Origin: Nocardia arthritidis
GTDB lineage: Bacteria; Actinomycetota; Actinomycetes; Mycobacteriales; Mycobacteriaceae
Reading direction: 5' to 3'
Assembly (NCBI RefSeq): GCF_011801145.1
Contig: NZ_CP046172.1
Location: forward strand, 8,556,001-8,620,000
Length of the DNA: 64,000 nucleotides
Shown here: positions 44,505 through 64,000 of the stretch, piece by piece
Layout of the letters: the number at the start of each line of letters is the position of its first letter
Numbering within the stretch: position 1 is the stretch's first letter
Translations under genes and position numbers: made by a program
The notes under the pieces: model-generated
Told to the model about the DNA's origin: nothing
Seen by the model: only the letters and a program-made list of their open reading frames with translations
Databases searched by the model: none

Positions 44505-44532
44505 TGTGTCCGTCGGCTCGAAAGGACATGGC

Positions 44533-46146: not shown

Positions 46147-46237
46147 CCAACCCCGGCCAGCGCCTGAAGTGTGGCAACCGATCGTCGGTGCGCGGTCGGG
46201 TCGGTCGACGGCGCAGGCGGTGGGGCAGAATGGCTGG

Positions 46238-49200
46238 GTGCGTGTTTGGCTGCTCGGGCCCTTTGAGGTGCGGACCGGGGATGGGGTTCCGGTGGAGATT
46301 TCGGGTGCCCGGGTGCGTGCGTTGTTGGCGGCGCTCGCGCTGGAGCCGGGGCGGGTTGTCGGGCGGGCGCGGCTGGTGGATTGGATTTGGGGTGAGGAGC
46401 CGCCGGCGGATGCGGCGAATGCCGTGCAGGCCTTGGTATCTCGGCTGCGCAGGGTGTTGCCGGACGGGTCGATCGAGGCGGAGTCCGGTGGGTACCGGCT
46501 TGCGGTGGCGCCCGAAGCGGTCGACGTGAGCCGATTCGAGTCGTTGGTCGCTCAGGCGCGCACCGCGGAGGATCCGGCGCGGGCGGATCTGTTGCGCGAG
46601 GCATTGGGTCTGTGGCGCGGAACGGCCTTGCAGGACATCGCATTACCGGGCAGCGAAGCATTCGACGCGGCGGTCACCCGGTTGAACGAGCTGCATCTCG
46701 CCGCGCTCGGCGACCGGGTGGACGCGGATATCCGCCTCGGCCGCGGCGCGGACCTGATCTCCGAGCTGACCGAGTTGACCGCCGCGTATCCGCTGCGGGA
46801 GGGCTTCGTCGCGGCGCTGATGCGCGCATTCGCCGAGGCGGGGCGCGGTGCGGAGGCGCTGGTCGTCTACCAGCGGATGCGCGAACGGCTCGACGAGGAG
46901 TTGGGTGTCGAGCCCTCGGCCGAACTCTCCGCGCTGCACACCGCGCTGTTGCGTGGCGAAATCGGCGGCCGGGAGGAGAGCCGCAGGACGAATCTGCGCG
47001 CGGAACTCACCAGTTTCATCGGCGAGGACGACACCGTCGCCGCGGTTTCCGATCTGCTCACCGAGCACCGGCTCGTCACCCTGACCGGGCCGGGCGGTTC
47101 GGGCAAGACCAGGCTGGCCACCGAGACGGCGCGCACGATGCTCGGCGAACTTCCGGATGGCACGTGGCTGGTGGAATTGGCGCCGGTGCGCACGGGCGGT
47201 GACGTCGCGCAGGCCGCGCTCACCGCGATCGGCCTGCGCGACCAGGCGCTGCTCGGCGCCGGCTCGGCCGCTGACCCGGTGGATCGGCTCGTCGCCGCGC
47301 TTCGGGACCGGATGGCGCTGCTGATTCTGGACAACTGCGAGCATGTGATCGAGGCGGCCGCGACCTTCGCGGCCCGGCTGCTCGGCGAATGCCGCAGGCT
47401 GCGGATCCTGGCGACGAGCCGGGAGCCGCTCGGTATAACGGGCGAGGTGCTGTGGCAGGTCGAGCCGCTCGTATTGCCAAGGGCGGGTGCGGATTCCGCC
47501 GAGGTCGCAGCGTCGCCCGCGGTGCGGCTGCTGCAGGACCGGGCCCGCGCGGTGCGCCGGGATATCGCCGCCGACGAGCCCGCCGTATCCGCGATGGCAC
47601 GGATCTGCCGGGCGCTCGACGGCATGCCGCTGGCGATCGAATTGGCCGCCGCCCGGCTGCGCACCATGTCCATCGATCAGCTCGCCGACCGGCTCGATGA
47701 CCGATTCCGCCTGTTGAACAGCGGAAGTCGCACGGCGCTGCCCCGGCATCGGACCTTGCGCGCGGTGGTGGACTGGAGTTGGGATCTGTTGAGCGAGGCC
47801 GAGCGCGCCGTCCTGCGACGGCTCTCGGTATTCGCCGACGGGGCGAGTCTGGAAGCGGCCGAACGGGTTTGCGCGGACGAGACGCTCGATTCCGATCAGG
47901 TGCTCGAACTGCTGACCGCGCTGGTGGAGAAGTCGCTGATCCTCGCGGACGGCGGCGGCGCACCGCGCTACCGAATGCTCGACACCATCAGGGAATACGC
48001 GGCGCACCGGCTTGCCGAGGCCGGGGAAACCGAACAGATTTACCGGGCACACCTCACCTACTTCACCGAGCTGGTCGAGCGGGCCGACCCGCACCTGCGC
48101 CGCGCCGGACAACTGGAATGGTTGGCGACGCTGGAGGCCGAGCACGCGAATATCGCCGCCGCCCTGCGCCGCGCGATCGCCGAAGGGCGGGCCGCGGAGG
48201 CGATGCGCCTGGTCGCGGCCGCGGGCTGGTACTGGCTGCTCAGCGGACGCAAGGCCGAGGGCACCGAGTTGGGCACCGCGGCGGCCTCGCTGCCCGGCGA
48301 GGTGCCCGATGCGGTGCGGGCGATGGCGTATTTCTTTGTCGGACTGTTGGTTACCGCCGGATACGGCGCACCGGAGCAGGCGGAGAAATGGATACATGAG
48401 GCGCACCGGTTGGCCGAACGGGCCGCCGGTGGTCATCCGCTGCTCAGCTTCATCGCGCCGTTCGAGGTGATACTGCGGGAGCCGATGGAGTTCGCCGCCG
48501 CGTACGAGCCGCTGATCACCAACGACGACCCGTGGCAGCGCGCGCAGGGCAGGCTGCACCGCGGCCGGTTCCGGCTCCGGCTCGGCCTCGACGAGGCGGG
48601 CGGGGAGGCCGATATCGCACTGGCCCTCGCCGAGTTCCGCGCGCTCGGTGAGCGATGGGGGATTTCGCTCGCGCTCACCTCGCTCGCCGATCACCTTGCG
48701 CTGCACGGCGAATTCGCGCGGGCGTGCGAGCACTACGACGAGGCGATCGCGGCGCTGGCCGAGGTGGGCGCGACCGAGGACGCGGTGGGTGCGCTGGCCC
48801 GCCAGGCTCAGCTGTACTGGCTGCTCGGTGACGAGACCCGCAGCAGATCCGCGATGGCCGAGGCGCAGCGGTGTGCGGAACAGATCGTCTGGCCCGACGC
48901 GCTCATCGTCCTCGCGCTCGCGAAGGCGGAGTTGGCGCGCTGGCGCGGCGAGCCGGATGAGACATATGAGCAGATCGCCGTGGTGCGGGCGATCTCGGGC
49001 GATGCCGAGAACATCAGCGTCGATGCCAGGATCGATGATCTGAACGGCTATCTCGCGCAGGATCTGGAACAGGCTCGGGCATACCGGACCAAGGCGTTCC
49101 GTGGGGCCGTCCAGGACGGCTATCAGCCGCTGATCGCGCAGGTGCTGATCGGAATAGCGGATCTCGCGCTGCGCCAGGGCCGGCCCGAGCAGGCCGCGCG

Positions 49201-49375
49201 CCTGCTCGCGGCGAGCGACAGCGTGCGCGGCATGCCGGACCGCGCACAACCGGATGTGGCCCGGATCGCCGATGACGCGCGAAATCGCCTCGGCGACATC
49301 GCATTCGCCGAGGCGACCCGGGTCGGCGGGCAAGCGGATTGGCGCGAATTGGCCGAGCTCACGCTCGCTTCGTGA
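46238..49375 (+). CDS. SARP-type regulator with BTAD, NB-ARC-like ATPase and helical-repeat domains
   Basis: 1045 residues: a SARP winged-helix DNA-binding domain (residues 1-90, VWLLGPFEVRTGDGVPV), a bacterial transcriptional activation domain (90-250), then an AfsR-like STAND ATPase with Walker A TGPGGSGKT and LLILDNCEHV, and a long C-terminal all-alpha region. GTG at 46238 puts the family opening MRVWLLGPFEV at the start. It is a plausible cluster-level activator for either the plus-strand operon before it or the convergent cluster after it. Its stop is 1 bp from the stop of the convergent hypothetical gene. Confidence 0.9.
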   Translation: MRVWLLGPFEVRTGDGVPVEISGARVRALLAALALEPGRVVGRARLVDWIWGEEPPADAANAVQALVSRLRRVLPDGSIEAESGGYRLAVAPEAVDVSRFESLVAQARTAEDPARADLLREALGLWRGTALQDIALPGSEAFDAAVTRLNELHLAALGDRVDADIRLGRGADLISELTELTAAYPLREGFVAALMRAFAEAGRGAEALVVYQRMRERLDEELGVEPSAELSALHTALLRGEIGGREESRRTNLRAELTSFIGEDDTVAAVSDLLTEHRLVTLTGPGGSGKTRLATETARTMLGELPDGTWLVELAPVRTGGDVAQAALTAIGLRDQALLGAGSAADPVDRLVAALRDRMALLILDNCEHVIEAAATFAARLLGECRRLRILATSREPLGITGEVLWQVEPLVLPRAGADSAEVAASPAVRLLQDRARAVRRDIAADEPAVSAMARICRALDGMPLAIELAAARLRTMSIDQLADRLDDRFRLLNSGSRTALPRHRTLRAVVDWSWDLLSEAERAVLRRLSVFADGASLEAAERVCADETLDSDQVLELLTALVEKSLILADGGGAPRYRMLDTIREYAAHRLAEAGETEQIYRAHLTYFTELVERADPHLRRAGQLEWLATLEAEHANIAAALRRAIAEGRAAEAMRLVAAAGWYWLLSGRKAEGTELGTAAASLPGEVPDAVRAMAYFFVGLLVTAGYGAPEQAEKWIHEAHRLAERAAGGHPLLSFIAPFEVILREPMEFAAAYEPLITNDDPWQRAQGRLHRGRFRLRLGLDEAGGEADIALALAEFRALGERWGISLALTSLADHLALHGEFARACEHYDEAIAALAEVGATEDAVGALARQAQLYWLLGDETRSRSAMAEAQRCAEQIVWPDALIVLALAKAELARWRGEPDETYEQIAVVRAISGDAENISVDARIDDLNGYLAQDLEQARAYRTKAFRGAVQDGYQPLIAQVLIGIADLALRQGRPEQAARLLAASDSVRGMPDRAQPDVARIADDARNRLGDIAFAEATRVGGQADWRELAELTLAS

Positions 49376-49376
49376 A

Positions 49377-49832
49377 TTATTGGCGATTCCCGTCCTCGGT
49401 CCGCGCCGCGCCGACGGGCCGCCAGCGCGCGGTGGTCACCTGGACATGCCACGATGCCACCAAGGCGACGACGGCCGCGCTTTCGAAGGGGTGACCCATG
49501 TGCACCACATTCGTAATGTGCAGCCGCGCCGAGTCGTCGTCGCCGTTCATCGAGGACAGCAACGCACGACTCGCCGCACGAATGGCCGGGTGCACGTCAT
49601 CGACATCCGGCACGTCATTTCCGGTCGACGCGCGAAAGCCGAACAGCGCGTCGGCATTCGAATCGCCGGCCAGATATCGACCGCAGTCGCGAATCAGCTC
49701 GAGAATAATACCGACCAGTTCGTCATCGGTGACCGAAGAAGTCAGGCGCAGAGCCGCATTGCCGAGTTCGTCCGCACTGTCCGTCGTGGCGATCCGCACA
49801 ATCTCGGCGGCCCATCGAGAGAGCTCGTCCAT
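49377..49832 (-). CDS. Hypothetical protein downstream of uL11 paralogue
   Basis: 151 residues, acidic, all-helical by appearance (MDELSRWAAEIVRIATTDSADELGNAALRL...), with an aspartate-rich middle (NDVPDVDDVHP) and no motif I recognise. It begins 30 bp after the uL11-paralogue stop on the same strand, so the two are probably co-transcribed. ATG at 49832. It is the last gene of the minus-strand cluster and converges with the large SARP gene. No function assigned. Confidence 0.7.
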   Translation of the reverse strand: MDELSRWAAEIVRIATTDSADELGNAALRLTSSVTDDELVGIILELIRDCGRYLAGDSNADALFGFRASTGNDVPDVDDVHPAIRAASRALLSSMNGDDDSARLHITNVVHMGHPFESAAVVALVASWHVQVTTARWRPVGAARTEDGNRQ

Positions 49833-49862
49833 CGTTCCCCGACCGCTTCTGCTTCCGAAGGC

Positions 49863-50294
49863 TCAGGCCTCGACCTTGACGCCCATCGACCGCGCGGTGC
49901 CCGCGACGGTCTTCATGGCGGCTTCCAGGGATTCGGTGTTGAGGTCCACCATCTTTCGCTGCGCGATCGACTTCAACTGCTCGGCGGTCAGCGTGCCGAC
50001 GGTGGCATTGCCGGGCCGGGCCGAACCGGAGTTCGCGCCGATCGCCTTGCGGATCAGGAACGAGGTGGGCGGCGTCTTCAGCCGCAGCTCGTAGCTGCGA
50101 TCCTCGAATACGGTGACAACGGCCGGAATGACCTCGCCGCGCTGCTGCGCGGTCGCCGCATCGTATTCCTTCTTGATATCGATGGTCTTGACGCCGGTGG
50201 GGCCGAGCATCTTGCCGAGGTCCACCATGGCGGCATTGCCCGCCTCGAGGTTGAGCGTTACGACAACGCTGACCTTCTTCTTCTTCGGAGGCAT
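49863..50294 (-). CDS. Divergent ribosomal protein uL11 paralogue, likely resistance target variant
   Basis: 143 residues. The C-terminal rRNA-binding domain is recognisable (YDAATAQQRGEVIPAVVTVF, LKTPPTSFLIRKA, GTARSMGVKVEA). The N-terminal domain starts canonically (MPPKKKKVS) but the conserved proline-rich loop (NPAPPVGPALGQHG in ordinary uL11) reads NAAMVDLGKMLGPTG, with both loop prolines missing. Those prolines contact thiostrepton and micrococcin on the ribosome, and mutations there give resistance. The B. cereus thiocillin cluster carries a second uL11 gene (TclQ) for immunity. No L1, L10 or L12 gene is adjacent, so this is not the ribosomal operon. The RBS is GGAAAGGAT. Confidence 0.9.
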   Translation of the reverse strand: MPPKKKKVSVVVTLNLEAGNAAMVDLGKMLGPTGVKTIDIKKEYDAATAQQRGEVIPAVVTVFEDRSYELRLKTPPTSFLIRKAIGANSGSARPGNATVGTLTAEQLKSIAQRKMVDLNTESLEAAMKTVAGTARSMGVKVEA

Positions 50295-50400
50295 CTTCGA
50301 GTCATCCTTTCCGTGTACTGAACATCAATGCCTCGCTCGCATGGCCTGGCAGAGGCTTTTCCCGCAGCTGACCACAAGCAGCTGCAGCCGCACACCAACC

Positions 50401-50429
50401 ACCGGTATCCCGTTCGAGGGAATACCGGT
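50401..50429. promoter_or_regulatory. Hairpin in the uL11-paralogue leader
   Basis: ACCGGTATCCC and GGGAATACCGGT pair to an 11-bp stem (one bulged A) around GTTCGA, about 110 bp before the start codon. It could be a leader attenuator or a terminator for transcripts coming from the P450 gene. Confidence 0.5.
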
Positions 50430-50763
50430 AACGAGCTTTGCCGCAACACTGATCGGGTAGCGAATCCACTCTCATCGAATGCGCCGATGGACTGCGATCC
50501 ATTTGCGGCTTCATCGCAAATCCGTTGGACCGCACTCCCCTTCTGAAGCATGGCCGCTAGATCGCACCAGCCCCGATGATACTGAAATTCGTTGCAAACG
50601 GCCAACTTACCGGAGCGGCCGAGGTTCAGTCAATTTCCGTACCAATACGATCACTTTACCCATCATCCGAAAGATCTTGCAGGTCAACCGAAGCAAACCT
50701 CAGCTACCGGCAGCCGAAGAGTAGCAGTCATATGCCACCGGAAGCACGCGATTTAAATACAGT

Positions 50764-50792
50764 CTTGCACTTGACGTTACGTCAACCGCAAG
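50764..50792. promoter_or_regulatory. 29-bp palindrome with TTGACGTTACGTCAA core
   Basis: CTTGC-NN-TTGACGT-T-ACGTCAA-NN-GCAAG: both outer and inner arms are perfect inverted repeats. The core recurs as TTGACGTTGCGTCAA in the palindrome at 55097-55133. Probable binding site of a cluster regulator. Confidence 0.65.
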
Positions 50793-50923
50793 TCACGAAT
50801 AGTGAATACAAAGCAACCCCCTAGAAGTGAGGTGCAGTACATAGGGGTTACCGGCCACTTGTCCCGAAACGCATTTCGCCACTTCGGCTCCGAATTCTTA
50901 TTGCGCCGTACCGACTTCGAACC

Positions 50924-52111
50924 TCACCAACGCACCGGCAACGCGCGCGGGTAGTGGCTGAACGGCGTGCTCACCAGCTCGACAGCGGTCGGATCGAGAT
51001 CGAGCTTCAGCTCCGGAAAACGCCGAAGCACCCGGCCGATCCCCTCTTGCAGCTCCACCCGCGCCAGCGCGGCGCCGAGGCAGAAGTGCGGGCCACCGCC
51101 GAAGGTCAAATGCTGCCTGGCCTCGGTCCTTCCAACATCGAAAAGGTCCGGATCGCTGAACTGTTCCGGATCCCGGTTGGCCAGATCGGGCCGGACGAAC
51201 ACCATGCCGCCAGCCGGTATCCGGACGCCGCCGATCGTTAACTCGGTGGTTGCGTACACCGCCCCGGCGAAGCCCGAGCCGATCTGGGCAAACCGCAGGC
51301 ACTCCTCGACCGCGGTCGCCATCGAGCCGGGTTCGGCCTGCATCCGCTCGCGCTGCTCCGGATACCGGAACAGCGCGAGGAAGGCATTGCCGAGCTGGAT
51401 GGCCACGGTCTCGAATCCGGCGGTGACCAGCAGGATCCCGGTGGACACCAGCTCTTGATGGGTCAGCGGTTCCTCGTCATCGGGTGCGCCGGTGAGCAGT
51501 TGGCTGAGCAGATCCCGCCCCGGATCGGCCCGGCGGCGGTCGACCAGTTCGTTCACGAACGCGCCGAGCGCACCCATCGCGGCGCCGAAGGCGGCCATGG
51601 AGCCGCCGGTGTTGCGCAGCCCGCTCGCCCACTCGGCCAGCCGGTCGTATTCGTCATCCGCCATCCCGAACAGTTCTGCGATCACCCGGATCGGCAGCCG
51701 GAAGGCCAGACCCGACATCAGGTCGGCGGGCTGCTCCAGCGCGGCGAATTCGTCGAGCAGCCGATCGGTGAGCTCGCCGATCCGGTCGCGCAGATCCTCG
51801 GCCTGCTTCGGCCCGAAGAGCGGGGTGATCACCCGCCGCCACCGGGTGTGCCCCGGCGGCTCGGCGATCGATGCGCCGAAATCGAATCCGTCCGGCGCGG
51901 TCGCTTGGGCCTGATCCCGGATGGGGCGCCGGGACAGCCGATCGTCCCGGAGCGCGGCGCGGATATCGGCGTAGCGGGTGAGCACCCAGGCGGTTTCGCC
52001 GCTCGGCAGCGTCACCTCGGGGACCGGCGAGTCATCCCGCAGCCTGCACAGTTCTCCCGGCAGCAGAAACGGATCGTCGCGGTGAAAGGGATAGGTCATG
52101 CTGTGACTCAT
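50924..52111 (-). CDS. Cytochrome P450 (canonical active site)
   Basis: 395 residues, soluble bacterial class I type. Haem loop FGGGPHFCLG with ligand Cys344; the I-helix VTAGFETVA keeps the acid/Thr pair; ECLR is the ExxR. It needs ferredoxin partners from elsewhere. The gene follows the SARP gene on the same strand, 22 bp apart. In this cluster it would hydroxylate or cross-link the product scaffold; the exact step cannot be read. Start ATG at 52111; M5 is an alternative. It is not closely related to the other three P450s here. Confidence 0.9.
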   Translation of the reverse strand: MSHSMTYPFHRDDPFLLPGELCRLRDDSPVPEVTLPSGETAWVLTRYADIRAALRDDRLSRRPIRDQAQATAPDGFDFGASIAEPPGHTRWRRVITPLFGPKQAEDLRDRIGELTDRLLDEFAALEQPADLMSGLAFRLPIRVIAELFGMADDEYDRLAEWASGLRNTGGSMAAFGAAMGALGAFVNELVDRRRADPGRDLLSQLLTGAPDDEEPLTHQELVSTGILLVTAGFETVAIQLGNAFLALFRYPEQRERMQAEPGSMATAVEECLRFAQIGSGFAGAVYATTELTIGGVRIPAGGMVFVRPDLANRDPEQFSDPDLFDVGRTEARQHLTFGGGPHFCLGAALARVELQEGIGRVLRRFPELKLDLDPTAVELVSTPFSHYPRALPVRW

Positions 52112-52133: not shown

Positions 52134-52961
52134 TCACACCTCGGATTCGGCGTGCAGCGTCCACGGCCGCGCGGCCAGATCGGATGGGATGCCGCTGCTG
52201 ACCGTTGTCCGGTCGCCCGAGAGCATCGAGCTGTGCAGCCTGCGCAGGGTCGGCGATGGTTCGAGCGCCTGATCCTCGACCATCCTGGTGCGCAATCTGC
52301 GATAGACGTGCAGCGCCTCCGGTCGCCGACCGGACCGGTAGAGCGCGAGCATCAGATGGGCGCAGAACCCCTCGTGCGTCGGATATTGACCGGCCAGGCT
52401 GGTGAGGTCGCCGAGCACCTCGTGGTGGCGCCCGAGCCGGAGATCGACCTCCGCCTTCCGGTCCAGCACATTCAGCCGCGCCTCCTCCAGCCGGCCCGCC
52501 AACATGCCGAGCGTATTCCCGACTCGGATATCGGCCAGCGGCCTGCCGCGCCACACCGCGAGCGCATCGGCGAAATGCTGTGACGCCTGTTCCAGATCGC
52601 CCATTTCCCGAGCGCGATGCCCGGCCGAGGACGCGCGGTCGAAACGATACATATCCACACTCGCCGATTCCGCCGCGAGCATATAACCGCCGGAATGGGT
52701 TCGCAGATATTCCTTGACCGTGGCCCCATTGGTCGGCGAGGCGAGTTTCCGCAGCGCCATAATATAGTTCTGGATCACGGTCCGCGCGCTGCGCGGGGCG
52801 GCATTACCCCATATTTCGTTAGTTATCGATTCGACCGAGACCACGCTGTCGACATTCGCGGCGAGCAGCGCCAGAATTACCCGCGGTTTGGCCGCGGACG
52901 GAACGATCGACCGACCGTCGATACGTACCGATAAATTTCCCAGTAGGCTGATATCAAGCAC
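52134..52961 (-). CDS. SARP-family pathway-specific regulator
   Basis: 275 residues: a winged-helix domain (ISLLGNLSVRIDGRSIVPSA ... LRTHSGGYML, residues 1-90) and a BTAD domain (residues 100-250, DRKAEVDLRLGRHHEVLGDL, LALYRSGRRPEALHVYRRLR). Short SARPs of this size are the usual on-switch of actinomycete antibiotic clusters. GTG at 52961 with GAGGAAAG upstream. It is encoded inside the minus-strand cluster, with the P450 gene following. Candidate ligand for the two TTGACGTTRCGTCAA palindromes, although SARPs more often bind direct repeats. Confidence 0.9.
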   Translation of the reverse strand: MLDISLLGNLSVRIDGRSIVPSAAKPRVILALLAANVDSVVSVESITNEIWGNAAPRSARTVIQNYIMALRKLASPTNGATVKEYLRTHSGGYMLAAESASVDMYRFDRASSAGHRAREMGDLEQASQHFADALAVWRGRPLADIRVGNTLGMLAGRLEEARLNVLDRKAEVDLRLGRHHEVLGDLTSLAGQYPTHEGFCAHLMLALYRSGRRPEALHVYRRLRTRMVEDQALEPSPTLRRLHSSMLSGDRTTVSSGIPSDLAARPWTLHAESEV

Positions 52962-53020: not shown

Positions 53021-54403
53021 TCAGGCGACCACGCTGTGCACCGGATACGGCGGCGACCGCAGATCCCAACGCAGCTCGGACTCCAATTGTCCGGCTACCG
53101 AGATCAGCAGCTGATCGGAACCGGGCGGGCCGAGTAATTGCACGCCGATCGGTATGTCATCCGAATCGAAGCCGCCTGGAATCGAAATACTCGGCCAACC
53201 GAGTACGCTCCACGGCCACGTATATTGAAATGCGGTGATTACCGCCGTTCGCGTTGCGGGGTCGTCCAGCATATCGATGCAGTCGGCCGGAAGTGCGGGA
53301 ATCGGAACGGTCGGGGCCAGCACGATATCGCAGGTCTCGAAGACCGCGCCGATCTTCCGCGCGGATCGCGATTCGGTTCGCCCGGCGAGTGCGGCCAGCG
53401 GACCGATGATCGAACCGAATCGGGTGTATGCCCGCGTGCGCTCGTCCAGTTCCGCTTCGGCGAGCGCACTGGCGACCCGGCCCGCCTGGTTGGCCGCCCT
53501 TGTGAAGAAGTTCAGGCCGACCAGCCAATCCTGCGGCGACTCGGCGTCGGATACCTCGTGCCCCAGCCCGCGCAGCGCCGCCGCGGTGCGCAGCAGACCG
53601 GCCTCGATGTCGGCGTGCAGCGGTGCCGGACCCGGCGGGAAAATCGCTCGGCGAGCCACGGCGATTCGGCAGGGCCGCACCGCGATTTCCGCCGCCCGTT
53701 CCGGATGAATGATGTCGAGCAGTAGCGCCGCATCCGATACCGTCCTGGCCAATGGGCCGACGATATTCAGCTCGCTGGGAAATGCGGCGGACAGCATTTC
53801 CGGCCGGGCGGGCCTGGTGGGCCTGATACCGACCAAATTCGTCCAGGCCGCGGGGATTCGAATCGACCCGCCGACATCGGAACCGAGCGCGGCGGGCACC
53901 AGCCGGGCCGCCACCGCCGCCGCGCTGCCACCGGAGGATCCGCCGGGCGTGCGGTCGAGATTCCATGGATTCCTGGTGACCCCGAATGCCGGACCGCTGG
54001 TGAACGGCCAGCGCCCGAGCTCGCACATATTCGTTTTGCCGACCACGATGGCGCCCGCGTCCCGCAGTCGCCGCACGACCGCCGAATCCGCCGATTGCTT
54101 CGGGAACGTACCGGCACATCCGTAGGCCGTCGGCTCGCCGGCAATGTGCAGATTGTCCTTGACCGCGATCGGGACGCCGAGCAGCGGCGGCCGCTCGCCC
54201 GCGGACACCAGCGCATCCGCCTCGGCGGCCTCCGTCAGCGCCCGCTCCCGGACAATGCGGAAGGCATTCAGATCGCGCTGGCTCTCCTGTATCCGTTCGA
54301 GCGAACGAGATACCGCGTCACGCGAACTCAATTCGCGTCGCGCTATCGCGGCTGCCATTTCCCGCAGCCCGAGACACGCCGCATCTCCGGTATCGTCGGC
54401 CAC
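53021..54403 (-). CDS. Amidase-signature family hydrolase
   Basis: 460 residues. The amidase-signature triad is visible: K82 (PIAVKDN), cis-Ser156 and nucleophile Ser180 in TPGGSSGGSAAAVAARLVPA and GSDVGGSIRIPAAW. It hydrolyses an amide or ester; GatA-like length but no GatB/C genes nearby. GTG at 54403 with GAAGGAG. The tight spacing to the upstream CGNR-like gene (30 bp) makes it part of the cluster; removal or exchange of a C-terminal amide, or trimming of the product, is possible. Confidence 0.88.
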   Translation of the reverse strand: MADDTGDAACLGLREMAAAIARRELSSRDAVSRSLERIQESQRDLNAFRIVRERALTEAAEADALVSAGERPPLLGVPIAVKDNLHIAGEPTAYGCAGTFPKQSADSAVVRRLRDAGAIVVGKTNMCELGRWPFTSGPAFGVTRNPWNLDRTPGGSSGGSAAAVAARLVPAALGSDVGGSIRIPAAWTNLVGIRPTRPARPEMLSAAFPSELNIVGPLARTVSDAALLLDIIHPERAAEIAVRPCRIAVARRAIFPPGPAPLHADIEAGLLRTAAALRGLGHEVSDAESPQDWLVGLNFFTRAANQAGRVASALAEAELDERTRAYTRFGSIIGPLAALAGRTESRSARKIGAVFETCDIVLAPTVPIPALPADCIDMLDDPATRTAVITAFQYTWPWSVLGWPSISIPGGFDSDDIPIGVQLLGPPGSDQLLISVAGQLESELRWDLRSPPYPVHSVVA

Positions 54404-54433: not shown

Positions 54434-54850
54434 TTATTCGGACGCGTCGCGGTCCGGCGATCGTCTTTGATGGATTTCGCACATTTTCCGGATGCAGCCG
54501 TTCGACTTGTCGATGAATAAATTCGAACAGGTCCCCACCGCACAGGTCTTCACCCGGCGCCAGCCATCGGCGTGCACCAGATATGCGAGCCAGAACAGAC
54601 CCTCCGCCAGCGTGGGTTCGGTCCCGTCGGCGACAAGCGTCCACTGCGATCCGGGATCGACGCGCTGAATGCGAACGGTCACACCGGTGTCCCGCAGCGC
54701 CGAATTCAGTCGCTCGGATGCCTCGTCCACCTTCCCGGCGCGCAAAGCGGCGCTCAGATCCCGGATCCTCGGATCGGAGTTCAGCATGGACTCCACCGCG
54801 GGCAGGTTGGGCAGATACATCAATCCGGCGTGCAGGGGTATCTTTTTCAT
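54434..54850 (-). CDS. Truncated CGNR zinc-finger/ABATE-like protein
   Basis: 138 residues. The C-terminal CAVGTCSNLFIDKSNG and KMCEIHQR match the CGNR zinc-finger beginning (two Cys, then Cys), but the final C-G-N-R is replaced by MCEIHQRRSPD and the protein ends soon after. The N-terminal ABATE-like domain (usually ~120 residues) is represented only by LAEGLFWLAYLVHADGWRRVK and a short leader. Family length is usually about 180-200. It may be a shortened but functional regulator or a relic; the gene has normal codon bias. ATG at 54850. Confidence 0.6.
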   Translation of the reverse strand: MKKIPLHAGLMYLPNLPAVESMLNSDPRIRDLSAALRAGKVDEASERLNSALRDTGVTVRIQRVDPGSQWTLVADGTEPTLAEGLFWLAYLVHADGWRRVKTCAVGTCSNLFIDKSNGCIRKMCEIHQRRSPDRDASE

Positions 54851-55096: not shown

Positions 55097-55133
55097 CCGG
55101 AGTGACATTGACGTTGCGTCAATGTCACTCCGG
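55097..55133. promoter_or_regulatory. 37-bp perfect palindrome, operator or terminator
   Basis: 17-bp perfect arms (CCGGAGTGACATTGACG and its complement) around TTG, ending 5 bp before the TylF-type stop codon. It can fold as a strong terminator for the upstream operon. Its centre also repeats the TTGACGTTRCGTCAA core found at 50771-50785, so a dual role is possible. Confidence 0.7.
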
Positions 55134-55137
55134 CAAT

Positions 55138-55932
55138 TCATTTACGCCAATACACCCCGCATTGATCGATGGTGACCAACTCCGGCTCCTGCTCGCCCGC
55201 GCTCTTCAGGTAGTCGTGCACCGCGAGCCGGCATTCGTCCAGGAAGTGATAGTCGTCCACCACCACATATCCACCCGGCGAGACCTTCGGATACAGGTGT
55301 TCCAGGGTGGCCCTGGTCGATTCGTAAAGGTCGTTGTCCACCCGCAGGATCGCCAGCCGCTCGACCGGTGCGCTCGGCAGCGTATCCGCCAGCCAACCGG
55401 GTAGGAAACGCACCTGTTCGTCGAGCAGGTCGTATGCCCGGAAATTATCCCGTACATCCGCTTCCGAACCACCGTTCAGAAATTCGTCTTTCATCCGCGC
55501 GGCCGCCTGCTCGTACTGTTCGGCGGTTAATTTCGCGTCGCCGTAAACATCGCTCATCCGATATCCGGTATCGGATGGCGGCTCCGGGAAACCCTGGAAC
55601 GAATCGGCAAGCCATACCGTTCGGTCCGTGACGCCGTAAGCCCGGAGCACGCCGCGCAGGAAGATCATCGCGCCGCCACGGCCGACCCCGGCCTCCAGGA
55701 AATCGCCGGGCACGCCATCGCGCAGCACCGATTCCGTCAGCTCCCGGAGGTTGTCGAGCCGGGCGAAGCCGACCATCGTATGCGCCCGGCTCGGGCAGTC
55801 CAGGCCCGCCATCCGCGCGGCCGCGTCGAACGGCACGGCGGGCCCCCATGCCGGGCTGATCGGCGGGTCGCGGTAGATCATGCCGGTCACCGCGCGTTTC
55901 AACAGGTCCAGGTACAGGTCCTGGTGCGCCAT
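55138..55932 (-). CDS. TylF/MycF-type O-methyltransferase
   Basis: 264 residues. The SAM motif FLEAGVGRGGAMIFLRGVLRAYG, the metal-site region ILRVDNDLYESTRATLEHLYP and VVVDDYHFLDECR match macrocin O-methyltransferase-type enzymes, which use Mg2+ to methylate a sugar hydroxyl. With the glycosyltransferase and epimerase genes upstream it suggests an O-methylated sugar on the product. It closes a run of genes ending at the 55097-55133 palindrome. Confidence 0.88.
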   Translation of the reverse strand: MAHQDLYLDLLKRAVTGMIYRDPPISPAWGPAVPFDAAARMAGLDCPSRAHTMVGFARLDNLRELTESVLRDGVPGDFLEAGVGRGGAMIFLRGVLRAYGVTDRTVWLADSFQGFPEPPSDTGYRMSDVYGDAKLTAEQYEQAAARMKDEFLNGGSEADVRDNFRAYDLLDEQVRFLPGWLADTLPSAPVERLAILRVDNDLYESTRATLEHLYPKVSPGGYVVVDDYHFLDECRLAVHDYLKSAGEQEPELVTIDQCGVYWRK

Positions 55933-55947
55933 TGGGTACGTCCTTCC

Positions 55948-56892
55948 TCAGGCCGCGCGGGTGAGCCCGTGCGGGGCCTTCCAGTGCTCGCCCTCGGTCT
56001 TGATGAACCAGTCGATCGTCTCGGCGAGCCCGTCGGCCAACCCGCGCAGCGAGTCGGGTTCGATGCCGACCTCACGCAGCGTCCGGGTGTCCGCGGAGAC
56101 CGGGGTGGTCGGATCCTCGCCGGGGCGCATCGGCAGGTCGACGATCGGCACCCTGGCGAAGCCGCGTTCCACGATGAGATCGATGGCCAGTTCGGCCATA
56201 TGCCGGATGGTGGTCGATTCGACCGGCCCGACCTCGACCACGTCGAGCACCCGCCCGGCCGCGGCCGTCTCCAGCGCCGATACCAGCGCCCGCGCGACAT
56301 CGCCGACGTACACCATGTCCGACACCTGACGCCCGCCGCCGTACAACTCGACCGGCATGCCGGACAACCCGCGGCACACCACCGCCGGGGTGATCTTGCG
56401 GACCTTGCTGGACCCGAACGGCGCGGCCGCCAATTGCCTTGGGCCGTAGGCATTTACCACCCGCACACAGTTGACCTTGGTACCCCGGTCCCGGTTGTAC
56501 ATCCGGACGAATCGCTCGACGGTCGTCTTGGAGATCGAGTAGGCGTTGTTCATCCAGTGGTTGCCCACGCAGATGTACACGCCGGGCAGGTCGTACTGCG
56601 CGATCGACTCGAGGAAGTTCAACCCGCCGAAGAGGTTGGTCTCCGCCGCCGGGCGCGGATTGTTCAGCGTCTCCTGCGTGCCGAGCACCGCGGCCAGATG
56701 GATGACGGCGTCGCAGTGCGCGGCGAACTCCACCATCGCGCTCGCGTCGCGGATATCGCCGAGCATCACCTCCCAGCGCGCGTGCGGGCGGCGCTGATGG
56801 TCGAACACCACGGGCTCGTGCCCGCGCTGTGTCAGTTCCTCGCACACATATGTGCCGATGAACCCGTTTCCTCCGGTTACTCCAACCCTCAT
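55948..56892 (-). CDS. NAD-dependent nucleotide-sugar epimerase/dehydratase
   Basis: 314 residues. Rossmann GGNGFIG at residues 7-13 and active-site YxxxK at Y118-K122 (YSISK); the C-terminal substrate region (FGSSKVRKITPAVVCRGLSGMPVELYGGG and VSDMVYVGDVARAL) is the GalE/RmlB extended-SDR type. It probably alters the NDP-sugar donor used by the adjacent glycosyltransferase. It is 15 bp from the TylF gene and 30 bp from the glycosyltransferase gene, one unit. Confidence 0.88.
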   Translation of the reverse strand: MRVGVTGGNGFIGTYVCEELTQRGHEPVVFDHQRRPHARWEVMLGDIRDASAMVEFAAHCDAVIHLAAVLGTQETLNNPRPAAETNLFGGLNFLESIAQYDLPGVYICVGNHWMNNAYSISKTTVERFVRMYNRDRGTKVNCVRVVNAYGPRQLAAAPFGSSKVRKITPAVVCRGLSGMPVELYGGGRQVSDMVYVGDVARALVSALETAAAGRVLDVVEVGPVESTTIRHMAELAIDLIVERGFARVPIVDLPMRPGEDPTTPVSADTRTLREVGIEPDSLRGLADGLAETIDWFIKTEGEHWKAPHGLTRAA

Positions 56893-56922: not shown

Positions 56923-58101
56923 TCACTTGCCGATGACCGGCGCCGCCCCGGCGACGAGCGCGCGCAGGTCGTCGGGCATCCGGTCCATGCGCGGCAACAG
57001 GCCCATCCGCTGCCGCAGCCGTGCGGCGCGGTCGCGGAAGCCCGGATCGTCGAGCACCCGGCCGATCGCCGCGCGCATCGCATCCGCGGTCGCCGCCGCC
57101 GGATCGACGACGGTGGCCACGCCGAGCTCGCCGAGCCGGCGCGCGCTGGCCGGGTGGTCGCCGAAAAGCGGTACCGCGACCATCGGGACGCCCGCGCCGA
57201 ATGCCTCACGGACACCGTTGAATCCGGCGTGCGTGATGAACAGGCCGCAGTGCCGCAGCAGCGCGCGCTGCGGCACGAACGACTCCAGCCGGACGTTGCC
57301 CGGGCGCGCGCCCGCCCAACCGTCCGGATCCATCCCGAGCGCGACGACACCGGTCACCGGCAGCTCGCCGAGCGCGGTGATGATCGCGTTCAGCAGCGCG
57401 GTCGCCCGTTGATCGAAGACGGGTGCGTTCATCCCCAGGCTGGCCAATACCAGCGGCCCGTCGCCCGCCGGCAGCGGGCACGGCTCGGCATCCGCCGCTT
57501 CGTCCGCGACGGACGGTTGGTAGTAGTTCGCATCCGGCCACCGCAGCTCGGGCGGGTAGTAGTCGGCGGGTACCAGCCCGATCCGGAACGAGCGCACCGG
57601 ATGCCACGGATCGTCCACCGCGGGCAGGCCGAACGCCGCGCGCAACTGATTGAGCTCGGCCAACGCGCCGGGTGCCGCGCACGGCGAAAGCGGTGCGATA
57701 TCGACGGTTCCGTGCGGCACGCCGAGGCATTGCGCGGCGATATACCCGCCGAGTTCGGTGGAATCGCGCAGTACGCAATCCGGCGCCAGCGGCCGCAGCG
57801 CATCGGTGATATCGGTGGCCTGCCGGTGGGTCCATGGCGTGATGAACGGATGCGCGGGCGGCCGGTCCGGCGGACCGGATCGCGGCCACGGCGTGCCATT
57901 CGTGAGCGCGGCGATGATTTCGTCGGTGGACATCAGGCTCGGCACCGGCACCATCGGGAAACCCGCGCGCTCGATCTGCTCGGCCACGCTCGGACCCGAT
58001 ACGACGACGACATCGTGACCGGCGGCCCGGATCGCGCGGGCCGCGGCGAGCACACCGACCAGGTGACTCGGATTCGCATGACTGGACAGTGCGACGCGCA
58101 T
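56923..58101 (-). CDS. GT-B glycosyltransferase (MGT/GT1 type)
   Basis: 392 residues: the N-terminal acceptor domain starts MRVALSSHANPSHLVGVLAA, and the donor site is HAGFNGVREAFGAGVPMVAVPLFGDH near residue 300, the GT1 signature for natural-product glycosyltransferases. The ATG at 58101 overlaps the methyltransferase stop (TGATG). The frame running further upstream is an artefact. It attaches a sugar to the product core. Confidence 0.9.
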   Translation of the reverse strand: MRVALSSHANPSHLVGVLAAARAIRAAGHDVVVVSGPSVAEQIERAGFPMVPVPSLMSTDEIIAALTNGTPWPRSGPPDRPPAHPFITPWTHRQATDITDALRPLAPDCVLRDSTELGGYIAAQCLGVPHGTVDIAPLSPCAAPGALAELNQLRAAFGLPAVDDPWHPVRSFRIGLVPADYYPPELRWPDANYYQPSVADEAADAEPCPLPAGDGPLVLASLGMNAPVFDQRATALLNAIITALGELPVTGVVALGMDPDGWAGARPGNVRLESFVPQRALLRHCGLFITHAGFNGVREAFGAGVPMVAVPLFGDHPASARRLGELGVATVVDPAAATADAMRAAIGRVLDDPGFRDRAARLRQRMGLLPRMDRMPDDLRALVAGAAPVIGK

Positions 58102-58922
58102 CAGAAACCCACCATCTGCTCCGGCGCACCACTGCCGGAATAGAGCTTCGAATATTTCTCCCGCTGGCTTGCGGCATAGGCCCGCCAGGCATCCGGCGCC
58201 ATCGTCACGCCGAGCGCCCGGTGCGGGCCGAGCGGCACGGTGTCGCCGGTGGCCAGCGCGGCCCGGTCGGCGACCGCCGCGGCGACCTGCTCGACGGTCA
58301 CGCCGCCGGGATCCCAGGTGGCGTAGAACTTGCCCTTCGTGAACGCCAGCGGCAGCAGCCGTCCGGTCAGATACTCCGACCAGAATGCCATGGCGACACC
58401 CGGAATATGTGCGCTGGACCAGTCGTCGACGGCCAGCACCCCGCCGGGGCCGAGCAGCCGCCGAGCGGTCTGGATATCGGCATGCGCGACATCGTAGGTG
58501 TGCCCGCCGTCCACGTGCACCAGACGACACGACCCGGCGGCCACCAGCGTGCCGAGTTCGGCAGACGGCCGCGCGTGCACGATCGGCAGCCGCGGATGGA
58601 AACGCAGATAGTTCCGCTCGAAGTCGGCCTGCCGCAATCCGGGATAGAACGCCGCGTTCTCACTCTGGTTGTCCGCGTCCTGTGCCGCGGAATCGAACAG
58701 GTCGCAGACGATCAGCGATTCGCCCCGTCGCGCGAAGTAGCCGAGCAGAATCGCGCTTTTGCCGTGGTAGGCACCGATTTCCAGGATGTCGCCGGTAATT
58801 CCGGCGCGCGCCTGGATATCGTCGATGGCGCCGAGCAGTTCCGCGTCGGTCGGGTAGAGCCATCCCGCCACGTCGTCATCGGCCGGTGCGGCGATCAGCT
58901 CGAGATATTCGGTCACACTCAT
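58101..58922 (-). CDS. Class I SAM-dependent methyltransferase (Methyltransf_24-like)
   Basis: 273 residues. Motif I ILEIGAYHGKSAILLGYFA, acidic post-I strand LIVCDLFDSAAQD, and VHVDGGHTYDVAHADI plus GVLAVDDWSS in the metal-dependent O-MT/Cmcl-like group. It may methylate a sugar or the peptide core. Overlaps both neighbours (ATGA, TGATG). Confidence 0.85.
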   Translation of the reverse strand: MSVTEYLELIAAPADDDVAGWLYPTDAELLGAIDDIQARAGITGDILEIGAYHGKSAILLGYFARRGESLIVCDLFDSAAQDADNQSENAAFYPGLRQADFERNYLRFHPRLPIVHARPSAELGTLVAAGSCRLVHVDGGHTYDVAHADIQTARRLLGPGGVLAVDDWSSAHIPGVAMAFWSEYLTGRLLPLAFTKGKFYATWDPGGVTVEQVAAAVADRAALATGDTVPLGPHRALGVTMAPDAWRAYAASQREKYSKLYSGSGAPEQMVGF

Positions 58923-61288: not shown

Positions 61289-61891
61289 TCAAGACCTGCG
61301 AATCATCCGGTACCACATGGGTCCGGCGTCCGGTGTGCGCCGAATGCTGCCGGGTGTCGCCGACACCAGCTCCCAGAACGGCGCGAAACCGGTGTCTATT
61401 TCCTCCGGACGCACGCTGAGCGGCCCCTTGGTGAACGCGTACAGGTACAGCGTCGCGCCGGGCTCGGCGAATCGCGCGATGCCCTCGGCGTAACGCGGTT
61501 TCGCCTCGTCGCGCAGGCTGTGCGAACAGCCGAAATCGAGTAGGAAGTCGTATCGGCCGCGCAGCGCGTCCGGCGGAATGTCCACCAGGTCGCACTGGAC
61601 GAATTCGATATCCACACCGTTGTCCGCCGCTTTGCGCCGAGCCTGTTTGAGCGCCTCCTCCGCGATATCCACACCGGTCACCGACCAGCCGTGCTGGGCG
61701 AGATAGACCGATTTCGATCCGGCGCCACATCCGAGATCCAGCGCCCGGCCGGGCCGCAGCGCATCCGGCCCCTCGATCAAATCGACCAGTTCGGGCATGG
61801 GCGGACCGAGATCCCACGGCGAAAAGCCGACCTTGTACGCGAAGTTGTAGGCGCGGTTCACCAACTTCGATGATTTCGCTGGCGGGTTCAT
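61289..61891 (-). CDS. Class I SAM methyltransferase (TehB/thiopurine-like)
   Basis: 200 residues with SAM motif ALDLGCGAGSKSVYLAQHG and VTGVDIAEEALKQARRKA, then IEFVQCDLVDIP and FLLDFGCSHSL, all canonical for small class I methyltransferases. The ATG at 61891 overlaps the VOC gene stop (ATGA). Its substrate is unknown; sited between P450 genes it is probably a tailoring enzyme. Confidence 0.85.
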   Translation of the reverse strand: MNPPAKSSKLVNRAYNFAYKVGFSPWDLGPPMPELVDLIEGPDALRPGRALDLGCGAGSKSVYLAQHGWSVTGVDIAEEALKQARRKAADNGVDIEFVQCDLVDIPPDALRGRYDFLLDFGCSHSLRDEAKPRYAEGIARFAEPGATLYLYAFTKGPLSVRPEEIDTGFAPFWELVSATPGSIRRTPDAGPMWYRMIRRS

Positions 61892-62409
61892 CGGTCGATC
61901 CGAACCGGCTGATCGCCCGCGGCGACCTGATCCTTGAGCTCGGCCCAGCTGCGGGCCCTGTCGGCAACAGTGGTGAGCACGACGATATATCCGTCCGGAT
62001 CGGTTGCCTCGACATCGACGGTATTCCAGGGCGTCAATAGCGGGCCGTTCACGGTGCCCTGCGGCAGTTTCGCCAATCGCTCGGCGATTTCCCGCATCGA
62101 CTGCTCGGTCTCGGCATTCACCGTGAAGCTGAGCCGCATGCCGCGGCCGAGTGGGCCCGACAGCGGTTCACGCGCCGGGCGCAGCAGCATATCCCGGTAT
62201 TGCGCGCGCCGCAGATGCAAAACGGCGAGTTGGCCGTCCGGACCAGTCAATTGCTTCTCCACCCAGAAGCCGAGCCCGTCCACATACCATTCCAGTGATT
62301 TATCGATATCGCTCACCAGCAGAATTCCGAAATTCGGCATATCGGGGATGTCGTCGAAACCGACACCCTCCGGCGCCCGCTCGTGGCTGGCGTGGTTCAC
62401 ATAATTCAT
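61888..62409 (-). CDS. VOC-superfamily (glyoxalase-like) protein
   Basis: 173 residues: paired beta-alpha-beta-beta-beta modules with NFGILLVSDIDKSLEWYVDGLGFWVEKQ and VNGPLLTPWNTVDVEATDPDGYIVVLTT, typical of glyoxalase/bleomycin-resistance proteins. Such proteins in antibiotic clusters act in resistance by sequestration, or as metal-dependent tailoring enzymes. ATG at 62409, followed by overlap into the methyltransferase gene. Confidence 0.85.
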   Translation of the reverse strand: MNYVNHASHERAPEGVGFDDIPDMPNFGILLVSDIDKSLEWYVDGLGFWVEKQLTGPDGQLAVLHLRRAQYRDMLLRPAREPLSGPLGRGMRLSFTVNAETEQSMREIAERLAKLPQGTVNGPLLTPWNTVDVEATDPDGYIVVLTTVADRARSWAELKDQVAAGDQPVRIDR

Positions 62410-62427: not shown

Positions 62428-63570
62428 CTACGGCTGCGAGGTGTAGGGCAGGGCCCGGACTTCCTTGAGATTGTTGAATGTGTCTATCCGCGCCGCCGCC
62501 GGGTCGACGCATAATTCCGGTCGCCGCGTGAGCAGTTCGCGAAGTCCGGTACTTATCTGCAACCGCGCGCTATTCGCGCCGAGGCAGTAATGCATGCCCT
62601 TGCCGAAGGTCAGCACGGCATTCGGGCGCACCGGACACCCGCGGACCGGCTGCGCCGCCGGTTGCTGCGCGAGGTGCACGGCCGAAATGTCGATCGCCAC
62701 TACGGTGCCCGGCTCCAGCACCATACCGAGGCATTCGCAGCGCTCGACGACGAAGCGGAATATATTGCCGAAAGGCGGCTGCACCCGCATCGCCTCCTCG
62801 GCGATCTCGCCGATATCGAATATATCGGAACGCGCATTCGCCAGCAATTGCTTATCGGACCATATTTCACGACAGGTTATGCTCGCACCGACGATCATCG
62901 GTTCTATACCGGCCATCAGCAATTGCCCGATCAACGCCGCGATCGGCCAGGTGCCCGCCGAGTCTTCGGCCAAGGCGCGCGCCGCATCGAGAAAAGGGCT
63001 GGACCGATCGCCGCGGAGCAAGCGGTCGGTCAACGACTTCAAATAGCGCATCACCGTTTCGTGCGCGCGAACTATTTCCGGTGAATGCTCGGTCTCCCCC
63101 AGCAGCTGCTGTTTGAACAGGTGGATGACCAGCTTGGACACCTTGCTCAGATTCGGCCAGTCCGATTCGGGCACACCGATCATGGCGAACGTACTGTGCA
63201 TCAGATACGGGGACAGGAATTCGGTCACCAGATCGCCCTCCGCGGGCATCTTCGCGGCTTGGGCGGCCGCGAGCTCTGTGAACATATCCGCGAACTCCGC
63301 CGTGGTCCGCACGGTGAACACCTTGCGCAACTCCGTGTTGAACCGCGTGTAGTTCGAATTGACGGTGTACCAGAGCTGGAAGAATCCGGAGATCGATGGC
63401 ACCTCGTCCTCGCCCGGATACCGGGTCGGCGAGGTGGCTCCCTCGCGTTCGATACCGGCGACGATATGCCGATCGCGCAATACCGCGTCGGCCAGATCCG
63501 GTCGCAATACCTTCAGCCGGTTTCGCGTGCTGTCCCACCGCAGGCCGTCAATTGTCGCCGTGACTTCCAC
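62428..63570 (-). CDS. Cytochrome P450 with AGIEP I-helix
   Basis: 380 residues. Haem loop FGKGMHYCLG, Cys329; ExxR EEAMR; the I-helix is LLMAGIEPMIVG, with the Glu kept but the Thr replaced by Pro. Paralogue of the P450 at 58919. The GTG at 63570 is used because GGAGG lies just before it; the TTG at 63582 would overlap that site. It starts 18 bp after the SpaB_C-like stop, so it is translated from the same message. Confidence 0.87.
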   Translation of the reverse strand: MEVTATIDGLRWDSTRNRLKVLRPDLADAVLRDRHIVAGIEREGATSPTRYPGEDEVPSISGFFQLWYTVNSNYTRFNTELRKVFTVRTTAEFADMFTELAAAQAAKMPAEGDLVTEFLSPYLMHSTFAMIGVPESDWPNLSKVSKLVIHLFKQQLLGETEHSPEIVRAHETVMRYLKSLTDRLLRGDRSSPFLDAARALAEDSAGTWPIAALIGQLLMAGIEPMIVGASITCREIWSDKQLLANARSDIFDIGEIAEEAMRVQPPFGNIFRFVVERCECLGMVLEPGTVVAIDISAVHLAQQPAAQPVRGCPVRPNAVLTFGKGMHYCLGANSARLQISTGLRELLTRRPELCVDPAAARIDTFNNLKEVRALPYTSQP

Positions 63571-63588
63571 GGTCGCCTCCAAATATCA

Positions 63589-64000
63589 TCAGTTGCTCAA
63601 TCGACTCGCTCGGTGCTCGCGCACCGCCCGCAGCAATTCCGGTTCCGCGGTCACGCCGGCCACCTCGCTCAGCACGTGATGACCGAGGAATCCGAGGAAG
63701 GATTCGTGTTCGGGAATCAGTCCGAGCCGGTTGTTGTGGGTGTGCAGAAAGGCCGCGAGCAGAACCTGCTCGCGCCTGGCGCGGGTAGCCGCCGGACCGG
63801 CCAGCTCGATCGCCGCGCGGATATCGTCGTCGAGCCCGCGCCACGCGGTGCCGATGGCGCGGTGGAACGGATCGTCGTCCAGGCGTTCCGGCGCGGCCAG
63901 CACCGCGGCCACATGGGTCGCCAACGCGCAGCGGCGCTGCTGCAACAGCTGCGGCCAGACGCCGAGGAATTGTTCGAAGGTGTACGGCGACCAGAGCAGG
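63589..64000 (-). CDS. C-terminus of a thiopeptide-type (SpaB_C/Lant_dehydr_C) biosynthesis protein, cut by window edge
   Basis: The last ~136 residues of a protein whose start lies beyond base 64000 (SPYTFEQFLGVWPQLLQQR ... HRASRLSN). AAFLHTHNNRLGL matches the end motif (about L-H-M-H-x-N-R-L-x-G) of the SpaB C-terminal/thiopeptide-type bacteriocin domain, found in the glutamate-elimination half of split LanB dehydratases and in the [4+2] pyridine synthase of thiopeptides. The rest is too short to tell which. If correct, it defines the class of this cluster. Confidence 0.62.
   Translation of the reverse strand, partial: LLWSPYTFEQFLGVWPQLLQQRRCALATHVAAVLAAPERLDDDPFHRAIGTAWRGLDDDIRAAIELAGPAATRARREQVLLAAFLHTHNNRLGLIPEHESFLGFLGHHVLSEVAGVTAEPELLRAVREHRASRLSN

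Follow-up and report, generated by a model that had tools for sequence, protein, structure and literature searches.

How does a bacterium that carries the genes for a ribosome-binding drug keep its own ribosomes at work? Drugs of the nosiheptide type, according to the passages cited here, bind between the N-terminal domain of ribosomal protein uL11 and H43/H44, with their thiazoles stacked on uL11 prolines, and mutations at this uL11/H43-H44 site reduce binding and confer resistance (PMC5960728). One described answer is to protect the same site through the RNA, as the 23S rRNA A1067 methyltransferases TsnR/NshR do (PMC5960728, in its account of the thiostrepton producer); a nosiheptide methyltransferase is likewise named in the literature. 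Another answer works through the protein. The thiocillin and micrococcin clusters hold a second L11 gene (TclQ/TclT) that is taken as target-replacement immunity (PMC10704990), and in the passages cited one article has TclQ entering the ribosome in place of L11 (PMC6804068), the other stating that incorporation of TclQ/TclT was not determined experimentally (PMC10704990). In the dityromycin producer, by the passage cited, self-resistance comes from an altered S12, also a ribosomal protein of an actinomycete (PMC6763770).

A different part of the story is regulation. TipA was first found as a thiostrepton-induced protein. The literature, in the sections cited, describes it as an autoregulated multidrug-resistance regulator and a drug sequesterer, and mentions no ribosomal protein as its target (PMC7762955, PMC2893106, PMC3917276). 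Proteins of the TipA class bind their own promoters upon thiopeptide binding (PMC7762955), many non-producing strains carry TipA, and its role is, in the words of the part cited, not deeply understood (PMC2893106).

There is also a use of L11 genes in genome mining, in which duplicated or incongruent rplK marks producers of protein-synthesis inhibitors (PMC9290621). In the rows of that study that we examined, the strains of Amycolatopsis and Actinoplanes carry a minus for rplK, and the sections seen describe no proline-less clade. Nocathiacins, finally, are products of a Nocardia strain and have L11 as their target (PMC11762266, in part), and the nocathiacin and persiathiacin cluster descriptions in the literature examined, which is partial, describe no L11 or self-resistance gene.

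Here we take up a second uL11 gene of Nocardia arthritidis, which we call uL11p, and the window around it, a stretch of 64,000 nucleotides (C1:8556001-8620000, C1 being the single contig of 10,014,015 bases). We argue that uL11p is probably a drug-inducible replacement for the drug's target, recruited by a neighboring thiopeptide cluster as self-immunity.

A Complete L11 Gene with a Rewritten Loop

The gene lies at 49863..50294 on the minus strand and is complete, with an ATG start, 143 aa and a stop. Its N-terminal loop reads AGNAAMVDLGKMLGPTG, with none of the four canonical prolines, and in an alignment of the genome's two copies it is one residue shorter than the loop of the housekeeping gene; the segment NPxPPVGPALG, which typifies ordinary bacterial uL11 and does not define the fold, is absent. 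An earlier note, made from the sequence by itself, had read the gene as a uL11 paralogue without the contact prolines that keeps the C-terminal rRNA-binding domain, and on both points it was right: the RNA-binding domain (PF00298, 92.7 bits) and the N-terminal domain (PF03946, 50.7 bits) exceed their curated Pfam cut-offs, and the bacterial L11 model TIGR01632 of NCBIfam is matched at 148.1 bits against a cut-off of 141.85.

The same note held that the canonical rplK is intact. It is: a gene of 144 aa at C1:9111350-9111781 with the loop NPAPPVGPALG, flanked by frames that we take, by eye and not from a family search, to be nusG and rplA. It is the one other L11 gene in the genome, and the worry that there might be no other rplK thus falls away. 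The two proteins share 68 of 144 aligned positions.

The AlphaFold model of uL11p is of moderate quality (mean pLDDT 72.7, pTM 0.52); its best structural matches are L11 structures, among them the nosiheptide-bound 50S 2zjp, and residues 23-30, in the rewritten loop, are modelled as a helix. uL11p has none of the four prolines and, on this model, appears to have kept the L11 fold.

A Thiopeptide Cluster beside the Gene

A thiopeptide cluster of the nocathiacin/nosiheptide type adjoins uL11p and runs past the right edge of the window. Those of its genes that lie within the window are on the minus strand, and many are close to relatives in or near a thiopeptide cluster of Actinokineospora fastidiosa, of which 60 kb was compared. 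Downstream of uL11p, after 30 nt, comes a 151-aa frame (49377..49832) that is likely to be co-transcribed with it and that matches nothing in Pfam or NCBIfam. Upstream lie a cytochrome P450 (50924..52111; 48-50% identical to its relatives in the A. fastidiosa cluster) and a SARP regulator (52134..52961; 58% identity to one in that cluster region), which Pfam assigns as the earlier note had done when it placed the paralogue beside P450 and SARP genes. They are followed by an amidase (53021..54403, by Pfam), for which the 60 kb of A. fastidiosa offered no relative, and by a CGNR-like zinc-finger protein of 138 aa (54434..54850), whose zf-CGNR score of 19.6 bits is under the 24-bit cut-off. Of 41 candidates in a search with this CGNR-like protein, a single one passed E <= 1e-5, a 98% identical protein of an unclassified Nocardia.

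Farther along are a TylF-type O-methyltransferase (55138..55932; its counterpart in the cluster region of A. fastidiosa is 60% identical), a protein of the NDP-sugar epimerase/dehydratase family (55948..56892), an EryCIII-like glycosyltransferase (56923..58530), a second cytochrome P450 (60052..61287; 59% identity to its A. fastidiosa cluster relative), a methyltransferase (61289..61891; 73%), a glyoxalase-fold protein (61888..62409; 82%) and a P450-like protein (62428..63582; 68%). The thiopeptide core starts with a Lant_dehydr_C / thiopep_ocin protein that is cut by the window edge (63589..64000, continuing to C1:8620698), and beyond the window, to about C1:8635423, are a dehydratase, YcaO, a ThiF-like protein, MIA synthase, the precursor, a radical SAM protein and a pyridine-synthase-like protein. 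The scores for thiopep_ocin (89.6 bits), Lant_dehydr_N (138.8), YcaO/SagD (292.4) and MIA synthase (739.3) are all over their cut-offs; the pyridine-synthase-like protein scores 135.4 bits with NF045556 (cut-off 325) and 35.2 bits, over the cut-off, with PF14028.

The precursor (NF033401, 70.2 bits, over cut-off) ends in the core SCTTCECSCSCSS, and nocathiacin itself has the same core peptide as persiathiacin. For persiathiacin, SCTTCECSCSCSS is the core given in the passage cited (PMC11406533). On the other side of uL11p, a large AfsR-like SARP on the plus strand (42556-49375) faces the cluster, and an oligopeptide-type ABC transporter precedes that SARP.

A Clade of Proline-Poor Paralogues

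Is the proline-less L11 a peculiarity of this genome? It is not, and the idea that uL11p is unique to it had to be rejected, there being many relatives across Actinomycetota. A protein search with uL11p returned 1651 proteins at E <= 1e-20 (ordinary L11 included), one of them a relative at 72% identity in Actinokineospora, and the N-terminal parts inspected among the matches listed all have a loop of the GK-x-LG type in place of VGPALG. In 23 aligned paralogues the new loop has invariant A18, G19, A21, V24, G27, K28, M29, L30 and G31, and the ARSMG segment is invariant as well.

We sorted 123 distinct L11-like sequences from the collected loci by their greater likeness to rplK or to uL11p and counted prolines from AG to LG. 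Canonical-type sequences have four loop prolines in 26 of 27 cases, the remaining one being the micrococcin-cluster L11 with three; paralogue-type sequences have none (67) or one (24) in 91 of 96 cases, the pattern going unmatched in the other 5. The earlier claim that proline loss is unique to this copy therefore does not stand.

Scanning one genome for each species turned up 308 relatives, and the best 80 of these, kept as the 80 named loci, come from Amycolatopsis, Actinoplanes and kin, Dactylosporangium, Allokutzneria, Actinoalloteichus, Nonomuraea and others. In a midpoint-rooted tree built from 134 sequences, starred branches set uL11p apart from the remaining L11 proteins. The micrococcin-cluster L11, the sole TclQ-type sequence examined, falls on the canonical side, on a long branch flagged as unsure. 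The uL11p of the window pairs with a protein of Nocardia sp. NPDC058497 (100/98) but is only weakly joined to the remaining Nocardia copies (93/68), and we therefore claim no route of transfer.

Within the genus, 19 of 150 Nocardia genomes carry uL11p, called at more than 180 bits to a uL11p-based model, the next matches reaching at most 164 bits. In a sample of the phylum it was called in 1 of 396 genomes (the window's own), a count from only 10 first-look candidates scored per genome and so no measure of frequency.

A TipA-Type Operator Upstream of uL11p

Between the P450 gene and uL11p, at 50771-50785, lies the palindrome TTGACGTAACGTCAA, the 15-base palindrome of the tipA-type promoter. 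Around it we predict a MerR-type promoter for uL11p (50761..50791, minus strand) of the form TTGCGG - 19 nt - AAGACT, the hexamers being placed by eye from an alignment to the tipA promoter. The genome has its own MerR-TipAS gene (252 aa; TipAS 121 bits), with the promoter TTGACC-TTGACGTTACGTCAACTTG-CAAGCT, and a second TipAS gene at C1:4807661. In 10.0 Mb there are just two exact copies of TTGACGTNACGTCAA, one at the MerR-TipAS gene and one ahead of uL11p, for 0.008 predicted by base composition, and the same pattern read backwards gives none in the genome. The two promoters are alike past the palindrome too and in the same direction (score 42, against a maximum of 34 in 2000 shuffles), so that, by exact palindrome and similar flanks, the predicted promoter of uL11p contains the operator that this genome has at its MerR-TipAS gene. 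From this likeness we infer that the MerR-TipAS protein would act on the predicted operator at 50771-50785.

Two features count against an inducible promoter: under our fixed MerR-promoter rule the region upstream of uL11p scores 12, below the threshold of 13, and the predicted promoter is about 470 nt from the start of the gene. The long leader between them (50295..50760, minus strand) lies in an intergenic region with G+C of 0.47-0.61 per 100 nt, compared with 0.67 for the window, and a search of 49300-51000 against Rfam gave no match up to E = 1.

With one mismatch allowed, TTGACGTNACGTCAA has one further site in the genome (0.41 expected from base composition), at 55108..55122 on the minus strand, about 260 nt upstream of the CGNR-like gene. 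This site is ambiguous. It may be a terminator, since it is inside a hairpin with 17-bp arms just past the TylF-type gene; what speaks for a real operator copy is that CGNR-like genes follow uL11p at loci with MerR-type promoters. How often do they? Of the 80 named loci, 18 have a CGNR-like gene as the next one after uL11p, and all 18 are among the 32 with such a promoter.

Promoters and TipAS across the Family

Those 32 of 80 loci were found by the fixed rule. The rule also accepts 16 of 1073 regions that lie in front of other genes at these loci, and 16 of 1600 stretches taken at random; all of these statistics are uncorrected for phylogeny. In Amycolatopsis the block upstream of uL11p, TTGAC-CTCCAGTAACTGGAG-TAGC, has the MerR layout, with a 19-nt spacer that holds the palindrome. 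Among 23 named uL11p genomes searched, TipAS, the domain that recognizes thiopeptides, is present in 15, namely all 14 that have the promoter and Thermoactinospora, whose upstream sequence is by eye a near miss; it is absent in 8, none of which has the promoter (Fisher 1.8e-5, uncorrected for kinship).

Two results from the genus Nocardia count against our reading. TipAS is found in all 11 genus genomes searched, with or without uL11p, so its presence in itself says little; and when the promoter rule is loosened, only 3 of the 18 other uL11p copies of the genus score 13, a fourth scoring 12.

In 15 whole genomes chosen for having uL11p, we searched TTGACNCTCCAGNNNCTGGAG with at most one mismatch. 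There were 30 sites in 14 of the 15 (7 in total for backwards-pattern controls): 14 at uL11p, 10 at a MerR gene of about 310 aa, 3 at a gene with TipAS only and 3 at others. Sites at uL11p, one in each of the 14, were to be expected given how the genomes were picked; those at MerR and TipAS genes were not. The TipAS-only genes, which have no MerR part, share the uL11p promoter type in all three Dactylosporangium genomes (called once by Pfam scan, once by TipAS match and once by likeness), and one of the three other sites puts a predicted Zn-protease gene (DUF2268) of Amycolatopsis suaedae behind the same MerR-type promoter. Weak TipAS matches (E <= 0.05) occur at the C-terminus in 6 of the 10 MerR proteins of about 310 aa, the best of them under the cut-off. 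The regulator of uL11p in Amycolatopsis and Dactylosporangium seems to be this MerR protein.

The notion of one operator in all genera was tried and rejected: the uL11p operators of Amycolatopsis and Dactylosporangium are of a CTCCAG type, those of the full-length MerR-TipAS genes of Amycolatopsis of a TTGACG type, which also counts against our reading.

The clade also keeps to set positions in the chromosome that have no thiopeptide genes. At 40 loci, mostly of Actinoplanes and kin, uL11p stands beside typA- and terC-like genes, and at 23-25 loci, mostly of Amycolatopsis, beside glyA- and carbonic-anhydrase-like genes (these four names we presume by eye, not from a family search). None of the 40 typA-type loci is among the 32 with a MerR-type promoter, and TipAS had no match in the 4 typA-type genomes searched, so drug induction is not general in the clade. 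Twenty-one typA-type loci, when aligned, have a conserved upstream block of their own, ACCCGAGAC ... TTTTGACCC ... GTCTCGGGGTT, which is not of the MerR layout.

Such fixed chromosomal places without thiopeptide genes are what one would expect if uL11p were an alternative uL11 for physiology (for example, for ribosomes uncoupled from Rel/ppGpp, or with altered factor binding), with resistance secondary, and the same uL11 loop has indeed been linked to the stringent response. We consider this unlikely, in view of the operators that uL11p shares with the MerR-TipAS gene here and with TipAS genes in Dactylosporangium, and of its place beside a thiopeptide cluster.

Clusters and Resistance Genes in Other Genomes

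If uL11p serves as an immunity gene, what else do the genomes that carry it hold? TSNR_N, the N-terminal domain of the TsnR/NshR type, has no match in this genome or in the rest of a set of 34; the model matched 1 of 14 control genomes, a set with no known TsnR-bearing producer in it. MIA synthase is over its cut-off in 2 of the 150 genus genomes (a third match is weak), and it coincides with uL11p only in this genome, 18 of the 19 uL11p genomes having no MIA synthase over the cut-off. The second MIA genome of the genus (G151) has P450-like neighbors of its MIA synthase; across 40 kb it shows nothing related to the thiopeptide core genes of our cluster, and it perhaps holds another indolic-acid pathway. 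In a sample of the class, MIA synthase is over the cut-off in 1 of 394 genomes, too rare to set uL11p against TsnR there.

A search for pyridine synthase in 39 uL11p genomes (from 40 of the 80 named loci) gave matches at E <= 0.001 in 12, of which 4 are over the cut-off, and none in 27. Among 9 of the 12 that were inspected, A. fastidiosa and Actinoalloteichus spitiensis hold clusters of the nosiheptide/nocathiacin type, and the other 7 have more distant YcaO, dehydratase or pyridine-synthase relatives. The A. fastidiosa core is again SCTTCECSCSCSS; the A. spitiensis cluster, of nosiheptide type with the core SCTTCECCCSCSS, is split over two contigs. Both genomes have uL11p and lack a TSNR_N match, and in both uL11p is outside the cluster as far as the sequence was compared, with no core gene within 10 kb on both sides of one locus (L033) or within 1.7 kb and 10 kb of the other (L037).

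When 21 proteins of our cluster region were compared by tblastn with 110 loci (the 80 named ones, each with flanks of up to 10 kb, and others that are short and in part belong to canonical rplK), no core gene was found in any; the matches were to the CGNR-like protein (14 loci) and, once each, to a methyltransferase and a SARP. We rejected uL11p as a general marker of thiopeptide clusters on these grounds, no core gene in 110 loci and MIA synthase over the cut-off in 1 of the 19 uL11p genomes of the genus.

Could uL11p, then, be a chance passenger at the cluster edge, immunity coming from a transporter, a drug-sequestering protein (MerR-TipAS, for instance) or a change in the rRNA? Only one gene of the same-strand run lies farther out, transporters lie to its left, and the two other cluster-bearing genomes keep it outside the part of the cluster seen. 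Yet uL11p occurs in 19 of 150 genomes of the genus and here stands beside the only nosiheptide-type cluster found among them, and it has the tipA operator in front of it. We give this explanation a small chance, somewhat less than the physiological one.

Discussion

What was uL11p recruited to do? Our preferred reading, built on comparisons of sequence, is that it is quite probably a drug-inducible target replacement that has here become a self-immunity gene. The strain would make a nocathiacin-type drug; the genome's TipA-type sensor, once bound to the drug, is predicted to switch on uL11p through 50771-50785; uL11p would take the place of ordinary uL11 in the producer's ribosomes; and ribosomes so equipped would give the drug no grip and hence resist it. 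Wherever it has the promoter, at least, the clade may be a device for drug-inducible target replacement, which the cluster would have recruited. It counts against this reading that, in work cited in one paper (of which a part was seen), L11 mutants still bound thiostrepton and rRNA mutants bound less (PMC3917276). That uL11p might be a free, non-ribosomal protein, such as a decoy that binds the drug or the leader RNA, is very improbable: its loop and many other positions are changed (68 of 144 identical to rplK), but the RNA-binding domain scores 92.7 bits, ARSMG is invariant in the 23, the model matches ribosomal L11, and a decoy without the prolines would be expected to lose its hold on the drug.

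The earlier note had proposed thiopeptide self-resistance by target substitution. At the level of sequence, the core of that proposal is well supported by the adjacent cluster, the lack of a TSNR_N match, the intact rplK and the tipA operator; its uniqueness is gone, and close homologues do occur in many genomes with no thiopeptide genes nearby (27 of 39 have no pyridine-synthase match), which the note had put down as the finding that would tell against it. Since the homologues are mostly without thiopeptide genes, uL11p looks like a wider actinobacterial gene that the cluster recruited.

The note's analogy with the second L11 gene of the B. cereus thiocillin cluster carries over as an idea and not in its details. 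The micrococcin-cluster L11 has one proline changed to T, keeps 3 of 4 and appears to branch on the canonical side, whereas uL11p sits on a starred branch of its own; the loss of prolines is thus not the sole route. For TclQ/TclT, moreover, the portions of the literature examined mention no TipA-type promoter. The other known systems differ in their own ways. TsnR and NshR modify rRNA, unlike uL11p; the S12 of the dityromycin producer, in the part of the account seen, is another protein at another drug site, with substitutions and not a separate clade of paralogues; and the TipAL/TipAS system is joined to uL11p by the palindrome that the two share in this genome.

Target substitution by an L11 paralogue is already known, and the inducible spare target is the bold part of our reading. 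In the literature searched, which lies mostly outside subscription papers and does not include the original nocathiacin cluster paper, we found no account of a proline-less uL11 clade, of a TipA-controlled uL11 or of an L11 in a nocathiacin cluster.

A broader model suggests itself, which we rate as an even bet. In many actinobacteria, sensors of the TipA class may respond to thiopeptides by turning on a uL11 without the prolines, in many cases together with a CGNR-like zinc-finger partner, so that new ribosomes escape the drug, and thiopeptide clusters may adopt the device as self-immunity. If that is true, uL11p would be a missing effector of the TipA system, and TipA would gain a plain purpose, the swap of a target. 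uL11p would be a likely self-resistance gene for clusters of the nocathiacin type and a beacon for genome mining, and the clade would form a natural reservoir of thiopeptide resistance other than rRNA methylation. The old question "what is TipA for?" would then become a testable one.
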